Shown here: positions 3,960 through 34,249 of the stretch, one piece after another
Numbering within the stretch: position 1 is the first letter of the stretch
Layout of the letters: each line of letters begins with the position of its first letter
Source of the DNA: a virus
Length of the DNA stretch: 36,041 nucleotides
Direction: 5' to 3' (one strand)
IMG/VR virus record: IMGVR_UViG_3300047562_001072
Location: 1-36,041 of that record
Notes under the pieces: model-generated
What the model was told of the DNA's origin: nothing
What the model saw: only the letters and a program-made list of their open reading frames with translations
The model's database searches: none
Translations under genes and position numbers: made by a program

Positions 3960-5088
3960 CGAGACCTGGCTGATGCAGCCAGCGGCACACGCCACAATGA
4001 TGAAAGTCATTGAGCGCATGGAGGACGCGCCGAAGCGGTACGCGGAAATCTGCGGCGAGGCGGTGGAGCTGCCATCTATGCGCATAGAAAACGGAACAGC
4101 CATCATTCCAATCAATGGCGTCATGGTGCGCGGGGTAAGCATGGCTGAGAAAATCGGCGGCGTTGTCTGCATGGAGGACATCGAGCGTGATGTGATTTAC
4201 GCAATGGAATCTCCAGAGGTGGAACGGGTTGTCCTAGACATTGACTCACCTGGCGGGATGTACAACGGCACACCGGAACTGGCTGAAGTCGTCGCCAAGT
4301 GCAAAGAGCGAAAACCGATGGCGGCATTTACTGCCGGGACGATGGCGAGCGCTGCGTATTATGTCGGATCGGCAACCGGCAACGTGATGTCAACCTCCAG
4401 CGCGTCAACCGGATCCATCGGGGTCGTCCTGATGTGGCCGGACGTCTCAAAAGCGATGGAAGACGAAGGCATTAAGATCAAGGTCTTTTCCTCGGGTGAA
4501 TACAAAGGCATGACGCCAGAGGTGGAACTGACTGACAAGCAGTCTGAGTACATGCAGCAGCGTGTGATGAGCCTGGCAGATGATTTTTACTCGCATGTAA
4601 TGGGGCAGCGAGCGGGGGTAAATGCAGCCGCGTTTGACGGTCGGGTTTTTATGGCCAAGGAAGCCTTGGAACTCGGGTTGATTGACGGGACGGCGCGAAA
4701 CGTAAACGAAGTGATCGAAATGATGAACGCATCAGAAGAAATCCAGGCGCTGAAAGCAACTGTCAATCAGCTCCGGGAAGAATTGAAAGAAGCCCGTGCG
4801 GAAATTACCGCATTGACGGATCTTGTGACCGAACAGGCCAGCTCGAAAGAGCCTGAGCCGGAAGCACAGGAAGAACAGCCAGACATTAACGCGATTGTCG
4901 AACAAGCAGTTGCTGAAAAAATGGCAGAACTGAAAAACGAAACCAAGGCGAACGCAGCTCAAGAGGTTTCCAAGATCATCGCCAGCGCTGGACAGGCTGG
5001 ACCGATCCCAGAAGCCCAGACCAAACCAACCTCCGAACTCACCGGGCTTGAACGTGCTATTGCTGCACACAAGCAAGCTCAACGATAA
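3928..5088 (+). CDS. S49-family prohead protease with fused scaffold
   Basis: 386 aa. Residues about 45-265 form a SppA/lambda gpC-like serine protease: IPINGVMVRG, VVLDIDSPGG (oxyanion glycines) and TMASAAYYVGSA with the nucleophile serine, then STGSIGVVL. A lysine in the segment FSSGEYKGMTPE is the likely general base. Residues about 270-386 are a charged coiled coil ending in TGLERAIAAHKQAQR, typical of the scaffold fused to these proteases. It would shape the prohead and then cut the scaffold. The start is inside the portal gene and has no Shine-Dalgarno. Confidence 0.88.
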   Translation: MLHNLHKLATNETWLMQPAAHATMMKVIERMEDAPKRYAEICGEAVELPSMRIENGTAIIPINGVMVRGVSMAEKIGGVVCMEDIERDVIYAMESPEVERVVLDIDSPGGMYNGTPELAEVVAKCKERKPMAAFTAGTMASAAYYVGSATGNVMSTSSASTGSIGVVLMWPDVSKAMEDEGIKIKVFSSGEYKGMTPEVELTDKQSEYMQQRVMSLADDFYSHVMGQRAGVNAAAFDGRVFMAKEALELGLIDGTARNVNEVIEMMNASEEIQALKATVNQLREELKEARAEITALTDLVTEQASSKEPEPEAQEEQPDINAIVEQAVAEKMAELKNETKANAAQEVSKIIASAGQAGPIPEAQTKPTSELTGLERAIAAHKQAQR

Positions 5089-9976: not shown

Positions 9977-10723
9977 ATGGCAGAATTTCTAGGCAGTCAA
10001 ATCGTTGAACAAGGTCAACAGTGGGCATGGGATCAGCAAACCGGGGACACGTTGATTCGTGCCTGGCGCGGATCTCAGCAATGGGCGACGGCATACCATA
10101 ACAGTTTGAAGGGCGCTGCCGGAGTATTACGGACAAGACTATCTCAGGACGGTGACGGGGCTGTTTACATCGTCACCGCTGAATATGGCCAGATACAGCA
10201 GCAGGCAGAGACGGACGGTAGCATTCCGTATTTCTGGGAACTGGCTGGGAACATGATCGACCGTGAAGTGACATCGAATCCAGCGTTTGACTCACTGACA
10301 AATTTTGAAAAAGCAGGCGTTAAAAATGCCATCGCTGACAACCTTGATGGCGCAAATTTAGAGACAGTTTATGCAGCTTGGAACAATCTCCAGAAGTCGC
10401 TTTACGACACGCTTTTAAACCAAGAAGCATATCAGGTCAGCTCCTACGTCCTACGAATAAACCGGACACACTCCAGCCTGTACGCCAACACAATCAGCAC
10501 GGCCAACGTCGGCAAAGTTTACACTTACGCGCAGATACAAGCAGAAGCATCCAGCATTGCCAGCCCGATCAGCGTGAGCATCAACAGCAATATCCCATCC
10601 TCTGGGGCATGGTTAAAACAGGCGCCGATCTTGACTGAGTTAAGTAACCGAAAACTACAAATGACTCAGGAATGGTGGTGGTCTGATAATTGGTCAACGG
10701 TGCTTTACGACGCAGTAACATGA
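9977..10723 (+). CDS. tail protein of unknown function
   Basis: 248 aa from the ATG at 9977 (GTG at 9968 in frame is an alternative overlapping the tape measure stop). Rich in Gln, Trp and Asn, with a pattern WAWDQQTGDTLIRAWRGSQQWATAY near the N-terminus. It lies where distal-tail or tail-tip proteins occur. No family is recognised. ATGA overlap with the next gene. Confidence 0.5.
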   Translation: MAEFLGSQIVEQGQQWAWDQQTGDTLIRAWRGSQQWATAYHNSLKGAAGVLRTRLSQDGDGAVYIVTAEYGQIQQQAETDGSIPYFWELAGNMIDREVTSNPAFDSLTNFEKAGVKNAIADNLDGANLETVYAAWNNLQKSLYDTLLNQEAYQVSSYVLRINRTHSSLYANTISTANVGKVYTYAQIQAEASSIASPISVSINSNIPSSGAWLKQAPILTELSNRKLQMTQEWWWSDNWSTVLYDAVT

Positions 10724-13900: not shown

Positions 13901-14054
13901 GTTAGATCCAGGAACCACGGCCTACAGTGGGCACTATCTGATCCGGTGGGGATCTGCGACACATCAATTTTGCTCAGGCGGTTTTAGCCGGACGCTTAAC
14001 CTGACGGCCGACCCATCAAATACCTCTTTTTTTGTGCAAGTGCCTTTGGTATAG
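10914..14054 (+). CDS. large tail-tip/adsorption protein
   Basis: 1046 aa, the largest protein here, in the place of lambda gpJ. The N-terminus GLTFTTADTVATGDEIKGSQLKSLADAFNDRL is followed by an alpha/beta region and later beta-rich parts. About twenty cysteines are spread along it (for instance QQCELYLRCMC and ECTQPGG), many for a virion protein. No catalytic motif is recognised. Position between the tape measure and the receptor-binding cluster suggests the tip hub or a central fibre. Confidence 0.6.
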   Translation: MGLTFTTADTVATGDEIKGSQLKSLADAFNDRLRSGVADPTYRIHHYFLSAWRQIRTGEGLTFPANSEFLESYMHVNPSQGSYPEPYFQGEGGMNPGNVMIQFVAGLPAIACQGDESPIRCQDETRINIDISNPSTLRGKWELAKRQRGYRDPVAETQVAPAVQAADLYNLYLGNSVNDKAYGGFSAQGLTGAVIQKTAAKAIERLGFQSFVSEFRGSTSQRAEDIDDIENIAFDFQHFLTSQYQLSPNYGTGGAAVYPKFEATGATISAGAIGSPHTINAEFVLGGALFEAEGLSGSATLTIKRDGVKLRQVTLTQDSLESLQFFDVEAGGEITVTLEADAEFEDSNGRITIECSELYEVQPGLQDAYLFLRLATTTGNVLDDSTDAIGINYASSKQISDDYKAFGCLIGSNQVPQQVVFGVNDNPVWDAARRRTREYVRVITRESLMGYSATANKSTLYFKRYKFIDGENYDMWDGIVDAIQDDPDQGEYSNEWLTFFQFKGFNNSESSIWKPSAYSDYWSMSERCQFAGQSLENSENGDYYDHFQSNLAPEASTGYRYIGTTNPTNFLDSDERSRFYKSCKIYAPDYEVESVTSTNIDGVEAVAVTYKTRFHRSATAPASVAFDIGTWDIDQINEDEYRTDENAIMSYILHAQLGAAMVARKTGDTATDWQPVLGTDQPHATIYPHFFFTKLIPFAGTGEDGVWERDDARPIIDQLQQCELYLRCMCEGYIDGPGTASYECDLNGSSLYDYTFQALCQEANGLNRISFLPADLLTGETISAGPLPNTLMYAEVFNQLARAVNLLDKARVAIPYKLFCKEYFFETYQDITADWDNGACTSPPGSVKAVWTGTAPAPSTLTAETDWQECTQPGGPGNPYGFQSTVNSQIDAFTCGTSGAYLLKSEALIVEFRFEPRDPLFTEAIPSHILELMRGGQGGFLGYLQTAETTREMYAVATGGEAIECDSNQLFHSGTGYNNNIITNDSTQCVLISSGALDPGTTAYSGHYLIRWGSATHQFCSGGFSRTLNLTADPSNTSFFVQVPLV

Positions 14055-14064
14055 TGACCAAGCT

Positions 14065-14724
14065 ATGATTACACCATATTACAAAGATGATTATGTGACG
14101 CTGTATCACGGAGACTGCAAAGAGATTGTTCCGACGCTTGGAAAGTTTGACCTGCTGCTGACTGATCCGCCTTATGGGATCAACGTGGACAAGACGATGG
14201 CAAAGCAAGGAGGCACTCAATACGGCAAAGCCGCCGCCGCGAAGCGGAACTACGAATCAACGGGGTGGGATGACAGTGCGCCGCCGCGATGGGTGCTGGA
14301 GATGCTGCGAGGCAGTGCCAGATGGCAAATTTTATGGGGCGGCAACTACTATGACGCGCTCCCCGCTGCCCGTGGCTGGCTCGTGTGGGATAAGGAAAAC
14401 GGCGACAACAACTTTGCGGACTGCGAGCTGGCATGGACGAACCTCGACATCGCGGTTAGGAAAAAAGCTCACATGTGGAACGGCATGATCCGCAAGGGCA
14501 AAGAGTCCCGTGACCATCCAACACAAAAACCGCTTGAAATAATGACTTGGTGCATCGGACTCGCCGGAGACGTGCAAACCATCCTTGACCCATTTGCAGG
14601 ATCGGGGACAACAGGACGGGCAGCAAAGGATCTCGGTAAAAAATGCGTAATGATCGAGCGGGAGGAACGATATTGCGAGATCGCTGCTAAACGCATGGCT
14701 CAGGAGGTTTTAGCTTTATCATGA
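14065..14724 (+). CDS. DNA adenine/cytosine-N4 methyltransferase (copy 1)
   Basis: 219 aa. Motif IV LLLTDPPYGI (residues about 30-39) precedes motif I DPFAGSGTTGRAAKDLGKKC (about 173-192), the beta-class order of amino-methyltransferases. It transfers methyl from S-adenosylmethionine to an exocyclic amine of DNA. The ATG at 14065 is used; the upstream ATG present in copy 2 is replaced by TAT here, and an in-frame TTG at 14032 is a less likely start. It ends with AGGAGG and an ATGA overlap into copy 2. DPPY suggests N6-adenine. Confidence 0.85.
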   Translation: MITPYYKDDYVTLYHGDCKEIVPTLGKFDLLLTDPPYGINVDKTMAKQGGTQYGKAAAAKRNYESTGWDDSAPPRWVLEMLRGSARWQILWGGNYYDALPAARGWLVWDKENGDNNFADCELAWTNLDIAVRKKAHMWNGMIRKGKESRDHPTQKPLEIMTWCIGLAGDVQTILDPFAGSGTTGRAAKDLGKKCVMIEREERYCEIAAKRMAQEVLALS

Positions 14725-15386
14725 GTGACCAAGCTATGATTACACCATACTATCAAGATGATTATGTGACGCTTTATCACGGGGACTCCGCGCAAATCCT
14801 GCCGCTACTTGGTGGCTTCGATCTCCTCCTCACTGATCCGAAATACGGAATCGGCGCTGACGCTGCCGCCGCCAATAACAAAGGCAAGTTTGGATGGAAG
14901 TACTATGGAGACAGCAACTGGGACGCCGAAAGAACGCCGCGATGGCTGCTTGAAATGGCTCTTGACCGATGCGAGGAAGGAATTGTGTGGGGAGGGAACT
15001 ACTTCACAGACTGTCTGCCTCCTCGCATGGGCTGGCTGGTCTGGAACAAAATGCAGCGAGACTTCTCGCTGGCCGATGGCGAACTGGCATGGAGTAGTTA
15101 CGACAAGGCTCTGCGAATCGCGGACATCTCACGCGGGAAGGCGAATACGGACGGGAAAGAACATCCGACACAAAAGAGCCTCGACCTGATGCGCTGGTGT
15201 ATCTGCTACGCGGAGCGGGCGGGCGGGAAGCGCATCGAAACCATCCTCGACCCATTTGCCGGATCAGGAACAACAGGACGAGCCGCGAAGGATCTTGGTA
15301 AAAAATGCGTGCTGATCGAGCGGGAGGAACGATATTGCGAGATCACAGCTAAACGGATGGCTCAGGAGGTTTTAGCTTTGGTATGA
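14721..15386 (+). CDS. DNA methyltransferase paralogue (copy 2) with altered DPKY motif
   Basis: 221 aa, clearly paralogous to copy 1. The first ~60 nt and last ~140 nt are nearly identical to copy 1 while the middle, which would hold target recognition, differs greatly. Motif I (DPFAGSGTTGRAAKDLGKKC) is intact, but motif IV reads LLTDPKYGIG rather than DPPY. The second proline usually lines the active site, so this copy may be altered or weak. Shine-Dalgarno AGGAGG lies in the end of copy 1. Confidence 0.82.
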   Translation: MSDQAMITPYYQDDYVTLYHGDSAQILPLLGGFDLLLTDPKYGIGADAAAANNKGKFGWKYYGDSNWDAERTPRWLLEMALDRCEEGIVWGGNYFTDCLPPRMGWLVWNKMQRDFSLADGELAWSSYDKALRIADISRGKANTDGKEHPTQKSLDLMRWCICYAERAGGKRIETILDPFAGSGTTGRAAKDLGKKCVLIEREERYCEITAKRMAQEVLALV

Positions 15387-27426: not shown

Positions 27427-28341
27427 ATGGCAACAATACCAGACATAAACGTTGAAGTTTCTGATGCTAAAATATCAGAAAAGACTATTTCAACACATGA
27501 AAGCATCTGCTCGGGGCAAGTCGGTGTTTGGGGCAACAATTTGTTTTCGCTTGATTCGGTGATTTGCGGGGATAACTGCGAAGTGATGCGGCAATGGCCG
27601 GATGAGTGCATTGATTTGGTGGTGACAAGCCCGCCTTATGACGATCTGCGAACGTATGGCGGGCATAAATGGGATTTCTACGGCGTGGCTTGGAATCTTG
27701 CGCGACTGCTGAAACCTGGCGGAGTGATCGTGTGGAATGTGGCGGACGCAACGAAGGATGGGAACGAGTCTGGAACGTCAATGCGCCAAGCTCTGCACTT
27801 TCAGCAAATAGGGCTGAACCTCGCCGATACAATGGTGTATCAAAAGCAGAACTACCTTCCGCAAAGCGCGCCCGGACGATACGATCAAGCATGGGAATAC
27901 TGCTTCGTGATCTGCAAGGGAACACCAAAGGCGGCAAACATGCTTAGAGATCGCCGTAACGCGAAAGCGGGGCAAACCTACAAGACCGGCGGCGGGCGCA
28001 TGAAAAACGGCAAGACTGCTGAACTGGTCACAATCACCGCGCAAGACATGGGACTGCGCAACAACGTCTGGAGCTATCCAGTCGGCGGATACGACAACGG
28101 ACACCCCGCGCCAATGCCGGAAGCGATGGCGAAAGACTGCGTGGCTACATGGAGCAATCCCGGCGATGTGGTGCTCGACCCGTTCGCGGGAAGCGGGACA
28201 ACGCTACGCGCAGCAAAAGACTTCAACCGTCGATATTTGGGGATCGAGATCAATCCCGCATACGTGGAAATCTGCAAGGAGCGAATTTCGCAGGAAGTAC
28301 TGCAACTCTTCATTCCACAGAACAGCAAAATAACCGAATAA
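27427..28341 (+). CDS. DNA methyltransferase, TSPPY type
   Basis: 304 aa. Motif IV VVTSPPYDD near residue 63 and, late in the protein, motif I DPFAGSGTTLRAAKDFNRRYLGIE (about 253-276), the beta-class order. S-P-P-Y is typical of N4-cytosine enzymes but also occurs with adenine. A central PQSAPGRYDQAWEYCFVICKG region fits this family. It is unrelated in detail to the 14 kb pair. The start context is TTTTAACCCATG. It would modify phage DNA early. Confidence 0.85.
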   Translation: MATIPDINVEVSDAKISEKTISTHESICSGQVGVWGNNLFSLDSVICGDNCEVMRQWPDECIDLVVTSPPYDDLRTYGGHKWDFYGVAWNLARLLKPGGVIVWNVADATKDGNESGTSMRQALHFQQIGLNLADTMVYQKQNYLPQSAPGRYDQAWEYCFVICKGTPKAANMLRDRRNAKAGQTYKTGGGRMKNGKTAELVTITAQDMGLRNNVWSYPVGGYDNGHPAPMPEAMAKDCVATWSNPGDVVLDPFAGSGTTLRAAKDFNRRYLGIEINPAYVEICKERISQEVLQLFIPQNSKITE

Positions 28342-31136: not shown

Positions 31137-31166
31137 ATGTTGAAAACTAAAACAAAAAAAATATGA
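31137..31166 (+). CDS. 9-aa leader peptide overlapping mom start, possible
   Basis: ATG at 31137 encodes MLKTKTKKI and stops at TGA 31164-31166, which overlaps the ATG of the next gene. Four of nine codons are Lys (AAA). Ribosomes stopping here could restart at the Mom-like gene. Short leader, so low confidence. Confidence 0.3.
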   Translation: MLKTKTKKI

Positions 31167-31852
31167 GCATGATTAAACAATTTATTATTCAAAAAATACC
31201 AAGCAAAGAAACTAAGCCATGGTTGCTCAATCGTCATTATGCACGAAGGATGTGTTCTATTTCTTATGCGTTTGGAGCGTATAGAGAAGGAATAAATTAT
31301 GGAGTGGTAACGTATGGAACTCCTTCAAGCCCAAAATTACGCGAAGGAATAGCAGGAAAGGAATGGGCAGAGTATGTTATAGAGTTGAACCGTCTTTGTT
31401 GTGTAAGTGAAAAAAATCTTGCCAGTCGTTTAGTAAGTAAATCTTTAAAAATGCTTCCAAAGCCTTCTATAGTTGTCAGTTATGCCGACATAAAGCAAGG
31501 GCATATTGGATATGTTTACCAAGCTGCAAATTTTTTATATACTGGACTTAGCGCGAAACGAACTGATTGGAAAATAAAAGGCCAAGAGCATCTTCATGGA
31601 ACAACCGTTGCGGATTTAAGCAGGGGGCAAAATAACCGAGTTGAATGGATGCGCAAAAAGTACGGTGAAGATTTTTATTTAGAAGAACGAACACAAAAGC
31701 ATAGATATGTATATATATGTGCCAGCAATAAGCAAAAAACAGAAATAATTAAATCTTTAAAATACACTATTCATCCATACCCAAAAGGGGAAAGTGTTAA
31801 ATACCATGCTGAAAATAAAATTGAATTGCAAACGACTTTTTCATTAAAATAA
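31163..31852 (+). CDS. Mom-like DNA adenine modification protein
   Basis: 229 aa. Pattern of the phage Mu Mom family (GNAT-fold, adenine to N6-carbamoylmethyladenine): PWLLNRHYARRMCSISYAFGAY, GVVTYGTPSSPKLREGI, VIELNRLCCVSEKNLASRLVSKSL, VVSYADIKQGHIGYVYQAANFLYTG. Such a modification blocks many restriction enzymes. The gene is distinctly AT-rich and has no GATC site, unlike its neighbours, which points to recent transfer. Family is recognised from the sequence; the exact chemical product is inferred. Confidence 0.82.
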   Translation: MSMIKQFIIQKIPSKETKPWLLNRHYARRMCSISYAFGAYREGINYGVVTYGTPSSPKLREGIAGKEWAEYVIELNRLCCVSEKNLASRLVSKSLKMLPKPSIVVSYADIKQGHIGYVYQAANFLYTGLSAKRTDWKIKGQEHLHGTTVADLSRGQNNRVEWMRKKYGEDFYLEERTQKHRYVYICASNKQKTEIIKSLKYTIHPYPKGESVKYHAENKIELQTTFSLK

Positions 31853-33106: not shown

Positions 33107-33280
33107 TTGACAGGTGGGATTTAGTCGGGCATGTTGGCCGGCAGTCTTATCCACGGACTTTAAAACTATGAGAAAGCAAATCAATCAAACCCCAATCTCC
33201 CTGCATTGTGCGGCTCTCATAGGCCGGTGGAACTCAGTGTAGGGAGATTGGGGTTTTTTGTTATCTAAGCACAGCACAGA
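33107..33280 (+). ncRNA. candidate structured RNA or leader before 33281
   Basis: A 175-bp gap with TTGACA at 33107 (a weak -10 follows), an AGTC/GACT hairpin (33143-33161), CTATGAGA at 33166-33173, and the 16-bp-stem hairpin below. CTATGAGA is complementary to TCTCATAG in that hairpin's loop (33215-33222), so a pseudoknot or a switch between two structures is possible. It could be a separate small RNA or a leader controlling the next gene. Confidence 0.45.
33187..33259 (+). terminator. long-loop terminator or attenuator, 16-bp stem
   Basis: AAACCCCAATCTCCCT (33187-33202) pairs perfectly with 33241-33256, followed by further Ts to 33259. The 38-nt loop holds a CGGC/GCCG mini-stem. Stem and T-run are terminator-like, but the loop is large, and it sits 22 nt before the next ATG. 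Confidence 0.7.
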
Positions 33281-33868
33281 ATGAAAACATTAAAACTCAG
33301 ATGGGTCGGACAAACACCTTTGCTCATGTCATCGGACAAGCTCGCAAACCCGCTTTCTGCGGAGTACAAGGAAATGAAACCTCTGACCAAAAAGCGAAGC
33401 AAGACCGAAGACGATTACGAAACCATCATGAAACTTGAATGGAAGTATCTGATGTATTTCGACAAGGACATTGGACCATACATTCCAACCAACAACATCA
33501 AGCAGTGCATGATTCAAGGAGCGACTTTCAGACGGCTTGGATCAAAATTTACAGGGGTAATTATTAACGCTCCGAGCCTCAAGGTTAAGCTGGAGTACAA
33601 AGGCCCAAGAGACATGGAAGGGCTTCAAAAAAGATTTGACGATTTCCAACTCACTACAAGCGTTGTTGTCAGCCGGGCGCGGGTGATGAAATGCCGACCA
33701 AAGTTTGACGGGTGGTCAATCCAGTTTGAAGTCATTTACGACGAAGCTGATCTGACCAAGGAAGAAATCATTCAGGCATGTGAAGACGCTGGCAGTAAAA
33801 AAGGTTTATGCGGATGGCGCCCAGCATGTAAGGGCGAATACGGAAGATTTACGGTTGAAACCGTTTGA
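33281..33868 (+). CDS. phage protein of unknown function (GWRPxxxGxYGRF type)
   Basis: 195 aa. Recalled pattern of a family seen in many phages: LRWVGQTPLLMSS at the N-terminus, IPTNNIKQCMIQGATF near residue 67-82, VVSRARVMKCRPKFDGW near 126-142, and the end GLCGWRPACKGEYGRF. Role unknown. The fold pattern (strand, glycine-rich end) is loosely like RAMP proteins of the Cas7 type, but that is only a guess. It stands alone between two structured regions. Confidence 0.6.
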   Translation: MKTLKLRWVGQTPLLMSSDKLANPLSAEYKEMKPLTKKRSKTEDDYETIMKLEWKYLMYFDKDIGPYIPTNNIKQCMIQGATFRRLGSKFTGVIINAPSLKVKLEYKGPRDMEGLQKRFDDFQLTTSVVVSRARVMKCRPKFDGWSIQFEVIYDEADLTKEEIIQACEDAGSKKGLCGWRPACKGEYGRFTVETV

Positions 33869-33890
33869 GACATTCCCGAAAGGGTGAACA

Positions 33891-33980
33891 TAGCCAAGCC
33901 GAGCAAAGCAAAGCATAGTCTAGCACAGCGAAGCGAAGCCGAGCATAGCGAAGCGTATCTAAGCAAAGAACAGACAAGCC
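33891..33980 (+). repeat. 18-unit NAGNN pentamer array
   Basis: Eighteen consecutive 5-mers in strict phase with no gap. 17 of 18 have AG at positions 2-3 and 14 of 18 have AGC; positions 1 and 5 vary. It begins 22 nt after the stop of the 195-aa gene and lies in a non-coding gap. On the minus strand it makes a false repeated reading frame. Confidence 0.9.
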
Positions 33981-34000
33981 GGAGTCTATAAAACACCGGC
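33978..34000 (+). other. hairpin before the 34013 start
   Basis: GCCGG (33978-33982) pairs with CCGGC (33996-34000), then CAATTTTTAAC and the ATG. It touches the end of the pentamer array and resembles the hairpin-plus-CAATTTT arrangement before 24772. Confidence 0.45.
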
Positions 34001-34012
34001 GCAATTTTTAAC

Positions 34013-34249
34013 ATGAAAACCTGGCAAAAAATTACAATCAAAACAAAGCTAGAGCCTGGCACGATCATCGGAGGCTGGACTACCGACGGCGTCTGGATGA
34101 AAGGGCGCGTCACTGAACACATGGTCCAAACAGGGCTTTACCTGATCGGGCATTTAGAGCCGACACACTGGACAAAGGCCGCTGCATTCTGGGACATTCC
34201 ACGCGCTCCACGGGTGGAGGATTGTCAAATGATGGAACCAGCTTGGTAA
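34013..34249 (+). CDS. unknown small protein
   Basis: 78 aa after ATTTTTAACATG. Strand-rich with several Trp residues (IIGGWTTDGVWMKGRV; THWTKAAAFWDI). Possibly an SH3-like barrel, but no family is recognised. Confidence 0.5.
   Translation: MKTWQKITIKTKLEPGTIIGGWTTDGVWMKGRVTEHMVQTGLYLIGHLEPTHWTKAAAFWDIPRAPRVEDCQMMEPAW

Follow-up and report, generated by a model that had tools for sequence, protein, structure and literature searches.

VIPR was described in 2026 as a relative and possible ancestor of CRISPR (PMC13142463, preprint). It consists of a small RAMP protein, Vipr (~20 kDa), and of vrRNAs made of 9-16 GGY/NN pentanucleotides and a 3' tail; the NN pairs form the guide, which reads double-stranded DNA as NNxNNx and represses competing phages (PMC13142463). 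The type system is SUSP1, the intergenic region next to vipr encodes the vrRNA, and the skipped base coincides with the codon wobble position (PMC13142463). An accessory gene, vap, is typical but not universal, and some systems have a single vrRNA (PMC13142463). Besides GGY, the preprint mentions "a related consensus" (fig. S17).

Here, we describe a locus in the viral record IMGVR_UViG_3300047562_001072 of IMG/VR (positions 1 to 36,041; this whole stretch of 36,041 nucleotides is called the window below). The locus is a new example of VIPR in which AGC replaces the published GGC/GGT repeat core, and we are highly confident that it represents a minimal phage VIPR, with one vipr and one guide RNA (vrRNA) acting by the mechanism proposed below. 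Since both a related consensus and single-vrRNA systems are mentioned in PMC13142463, a new type is not claimed. The features of the locus are as follows.

33187..33262, plus strand: 22-bp stem-loop and T-run directly upstream of vipr (fold, -45.5 kcal/mol, z=-7.0)
33281..33868, plus strand: vipr, encoding a 195-aa RAMP (Cas7-like) protein, phrog_4652 (homology, AlphaFold model, fold matches)
33892..33981, plus strand: repeat tract of the predicted vrRNA, 18 AGY/NN units (direct reading and simulations)
33978..34009, plus strand: 3' tail of the predicted vrRNA, a GCCGG...CCGGC hairpin beginning within the last repeat, then GCAATTTTT (fold)

The array lies within the 144-nt gap separating the plus-strand ORFs 33281-33868 and 34013-34249 and begins 23 nt past the stop codon of vipr, on the same strand. 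Units 1-9 read AGCCA AGCCG AGCAA AGCAA AGCAT AGTCT AGCAC AGCGA AGCGA and units 10-18 read AGCCG AGCAT AGCGA AGCGT ATCTA AGCAA AGAAC AGACA AGCCG, which gives the NN series CA CG AA AA AT CT AC GA GA CG AT GA GT TA AA AC CA CG. The first-pass annotation had placed the same array at 33891-33980 in an NAGNN register and had described it as 18 units without gaps, in phase, with AG in 17 and AGC in 14. Direct reading and 100 first-order Markov simulations confirmed this: indels and frame breaks were absent (0 each), and the simulated windows topped out at 8 AG and 5 AGC per 18 units. The four units departing from AGC are AGT, ATC, AGA and AGA; ATC is the sole loss of AG, and the two AGA units sit toward the tail end. 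On the opposite strand, the top comparable 18-unit run had 6 AG and 4 AGC. No other trinucleotide at periods of 3 to 12 rose above 9/18 in the whole window, and the array was the only one that a generic pentamer scan detected in the 36 kb. An Rfam search of the array region gave no match, and BLASTN of the array against phages returned short unrelated matches only.

By homology and by its modelled structure, the gene directly upstream of the array encodes a Vipr protein. Its matched family, phrog_4652, has no assigned function, but phmmer aligned residues 1-194 with PDB entry 36pp_D, "SUSP1 Vipr protein" (E=4.2e-27), and a profile search gave E=6.8e-55 for the same entry. The reading frame is full-length and intact, and the alignment showed every invariant residue to be kept; the C-terminal G-rich loop GLCGWRPACKGEYGRF aligns with the invariant G171, G175, R180 and G188. 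An AlphaFold model built with 20 homologues as input had a mean pLDDT of 91.8. The best 50 PDB fold matches listed were all CRISPR effector complexes, mostly their Csm3/Cas7 subunits, with TM-scores of 0.36-0.54, so the likeness of Vipr to Cas7 holds at the level of the fold. By analogy with these subunits, Vipr is expected to coat the vrRNA. Phage relatives of the protein were found in SUSP2, many Ounavirinae, LESphi2, Medea1, actinophages and Vibrio phages. PADLOC did not match the protein, and a search for related loci with this single Vipr as the query found none because it is too divergent. Homologues with 31-35% identity also occur beyond phages, on large Azospirillum and Bradyrhizobium plasmids (H146-H151).

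The tail hairpin is short (-9.3 kcal/mol, z=-2.78) and possibly doubles as a terminator; a hairpin is found at the equivalent place in relatives too, for example AGCCCCATAAGGGG. The stem-loop upstream of vipr is probably an intrinsic terminator dividing vipr from the preceding gene. It is unusually strong for a terminator, and another RNA element is an alternative. A search for vap1, the one vap gene covered, gave no homologue in the window (top E about 1), and neither CRISPR repeats nor cas neighbours were found in the window by the repeat search and with the families searched. Elsewhere in the window, a Mom family protein (31163-31852, E=1e-39) points to phage DNA modification, and two neighbouring similar ORFs at 14032-15386 and a third at 27427-28341 are DNA methyltransferase-like, with DPPY-type motifs recognised by eye, and probably serve further DNA modification. 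Terminase and portal weakly resemble those of Verrucomicrobia phage P8625 (24-28%), from which a verrucomicrobial host may be guessed.

The locus shares a full-length Vipr homologue with Escherichia phage SUSP1 and the Pseudomonas fulva prophage (type II VIPR; PMC13142463); the identity to the SUSP2 protein is 33%. It also shares with them the 5-nt tandem repeats with a fixed triplet and hypervariable NN, the array in the adjacent gap on the strand of the gene, and, as regards position, a short hairpin after the array. Unlike in these systems, the triplet is AGY, a departure from the strict GGY form, there are 17-18 units instead of the stated 9-16, and a single vrRNA lies directly downstream of vipr with no vap1 detected. 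The closest named Vipr homologue, both by identity (42.6%) and in the tree, is that of Pseudomonas phage LESphi2 (L124). In that phage, in contrast to the window, the triplets are GGC, the arrays lie upstream of the gene and vipr is immediately followed by a vap1-like gene. Several IMG/VR loci with multiple AGCNN arrays (L030, L014, L070, L045, L012/L079, L035/L065) have AGC on the same strand and a Vipr 37-42% identical to that of the window but, unlike the window, usually combine several serial arrays, joined by a conserved linker, with a homologue of vap1. Class 1 CRISPR effectors with Cas7/Csm3 are similar in the RAMP fold and in having subunits that coat a guide RNA; in the window, no CRISPR array and, with the families searched, no other cas genes were found, and the guide bases would be read with gaps.

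Such arrays occur together with vipr elsewhere too. In-phase pentanucleotide arrays were found beside the gene in 11 of the 12 phage Vipr homologues scanned, SUSP2 included; the exception was prophiBWHA-1, which had no array flanking its Vipr homologue. The outcome that the first-pass annotation had named as a refutation, arrays absent or broken in frame in homologues, was thus not observed. The match in MakoManhole was weak. The flanking triplet was mainly GGT in SUSP2, tootiki, Mijalis and Medea1 and GGC in LESphi2 and most actinophages, and the Vibrio phages phiHSIC and 1.266.O (L132 and L133) had GCA as a further variant. A phage-wide search for the companion gene of AGCNN arrays, proposed from the first reading, was then answered with a protein-independent pattern, seven AGC at 5-nt spacing, run against IMG/VR. 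Among the matches listed, a vipr homologue was present within the stretch fetched in 36 of the 53 contigs with high-entropy arrays (variable NN) and in only 2 of the 66 with low-entropy arrays, i.e., simple AGC repeats (Fisher p=3.8e-15), and the nearest array shared the strand of the gene in 37 of 38 cases. Many of the AGCNN arrays from IMG/VR are non-coding, since every one of their six frames is interrupted by a stop codon. In several relatives, as many as about ten arrays follow one another, separated by a conserved hairpin-bearing linker, which resembles the array architectures of PMC13142463; AGT units are also present in intact relatives. Across a 43-protein Vipr tree, AGC was widely scattered, with at least three label changes on well-supported branches, although 2-3 of the automatically assigned triplet labels may be off; since the sample was drawn by the AGC pattern, the tree shows that AGY is widespread and not how frequent it is.

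Some AGCNN arrays run to ~30 to 71 uninterrupted units and far exceed the published 9-16 (L024, reverse strand, 1215-1569; L120, 854-1163; L043/L104; L074, reverse strand, 4021-4195 and 10143-10297). The long array of L024 has AG in 70 of 71 units. Such arrays adjoin distant Vipr homologues, none of which was seen in the L043/L104 stretches, and are perhaps overlapping or staggered guides. Five contigs (L012, L035, L042, L065 and L079) carry CRISPR-like strings of AGCNN guides with the conserved linker AGGCTACAAAGTAGCG...GCGGTATTCGTACCAC. Some of the guides are common to several of these contigs and others differ, so that gain and loss of guides can be compared directly.

If the skipped base falls on the wobble position, the NN pairs of AGY guides should resemble codon positions 1-2 on either strand. 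Therefore, the guides were compared with codon statistics from the ORFs of their own contigs. Positions 1-2 were indeed the best phase in 58 of 95 AGY guides among the matches listed, the other two phases being best in 14 and 23, and the total log-likelihood ratio was +22.9; shuffling the second base within guides 200 times gave a mean of 5.3 and at most 19.7. With one vote per locus, positions 1-2 were favoured in 22 of 32 loci, related loci being partly dependent. GGY guides gave the same sign, and random 5-periodic reads taken from these contigs lacked the signal. For the guide of the window, the preference for phase 1-2 is weak (+1.0); its NNx reading forces no stop and gives the codons [HQ]R[KN][KN][IM]LT[DE][DE]R[IM][DE]VY[KN]... 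These data indirectly support the view that AGY guides as a class follow a 1-nt-skip, wobble-aligned reading rule. A direct comparison of guides with 1.5 Mb of loci under different skip rules yielded two 10-unit skip-1 matches, each in the contig of the guide itself (L056, L101), which were GC-rich and unconvincing.

By analogy with the published systems, we infer transcription, RNP formation, DNA binding and silencing of competitors for the locus. The array would be transcribed into an RNA of ~115 nt, as deduced from PMC13142463. Vipr subunits would then polymerise along this vrRNA, one per pentanucleotide, gripping AGY and presenting NN, and the NN pairs would recognise double-stranded DNA, skipping one base at each step. 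The predicted target is CAxCGxAAxAAxATxCTxACxGAxGAxCGxATxGAxGTxTAx..., and the bound RNP would repress a gene belonging to a competitor in the same host, be it a phage, a satellite or a prophage. Searches for this target with 1-nt skip found no match to the 10-unit patterns in IMG/VR. The 9-unit pattern gave 4 matches in GTDB genomes, which is about the chance expectation, and 8-unit seeds gave 14 and 34; none of these extended past 10/18 units. A peptide tblastn and a search within the window's own record found no target of its guide, nor was one found for the two guides of relatives that were searched.

The first-pass annotation had proposed that a ring-shaped protein reads each triplet. Gripping of each conserved triplet of an RNA at a fixed 5-nt spacing is very probable, but the ring was given up since the adjacent gene encodes a Cas7-like Vipr, and RecT, which had been named as another reader, was ruled out by the same evidence. 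In Bacillus TRAP, repeated protein units recognise about 11 (G/U)AG triplets at 4-5-nt spacing. A TRAP-like ring (11-mer or other) that controls expression by binding NAG triplets of the transcript, the NN being mere spacers, would fit the geometry of triplet plus 2-nt spacer, the fixed 5-nt phase and the 17-18 units. This is nevertheless highly improbable: the lack of a TRAP gene and the scarcity of GAG or TAG, both already seen at first reading, were borne out by a search for the TrpBP family (PF02081), which matched nothing in the record and was positive in the B. subtilis control, and by the triplets themselves, only 6 of 17 of which are GAG or TAG, the rest being mostly AAG/CAG. Moreover, such arrays are accompanied by the gene for the Cas7-like Vipr, and the NN, once taken for spacers, are informative guide bases that resemble codon positions 1-2. 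A repeat at the protein level is hardly credible either. An ATG-started minus-strand ORF of 116 aa (33772-34122) does span the array and reads AxLxx across it, like a pentapeptide repeat, but AxLxx arises from any GCTNN array in frame, the ORF opposes all of its neighbours and overruns both vipr and the next gene, and many related arrays have stops in six frames.

Slippage of a simple repeat or a chance run could be suspected from the weak period-5 and period-20 repeats reported by TRF at the array. Both are refuted by the simulations, in which chance runs reached at most 8/18 AG, and by the association with vipr, which separates variable arrays from simple repeats; the units are non-identical, with an NN entropy of 3.0 bits of 4, and the early argument against slippage thus proved sound. 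A degenerate relic, with array and vipr genuine but no longer working, is unlikely. The four deviating units, one of them without AG, the missing vap1 and the fruitless target searches of IMG/VR and GTDB genomes would agree with it. Against decay speak the full-length vipr frame with all its invariant residues, the AGT found in intact relatives, the position of both AGA units near the tail and the single vrRNA known from some published systems. The array, the homology and fold of Vipr, the same-strand co-occurrence and the codon-phase signal are established here.

The AGCNN pattern is a cheap finder of VIPR loci, as is evident from the share of variable arrays with vipr (36/53 among the matches listed). 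It is conceivable, although we hold this with less than even confidence, that AGY/NN arrays make up a large and phylogenetically broad half of VIPR in environmental phages, in which the 1-nt-skip, wobble-aligned code would be kept despite the changed triplet, and that here a single Vipr with a single AGY guide may be enough in the absence of vap1. VIPR has been proposed as an ancestor of CRISPR, and the locus is a naturally very compact instance of it, with a 195-aa protein and a guide of ~115 nt. Its small size and altered repeat core make it suited to testing which part of the repeat Vipr reads and whether an accessory gene is needed.
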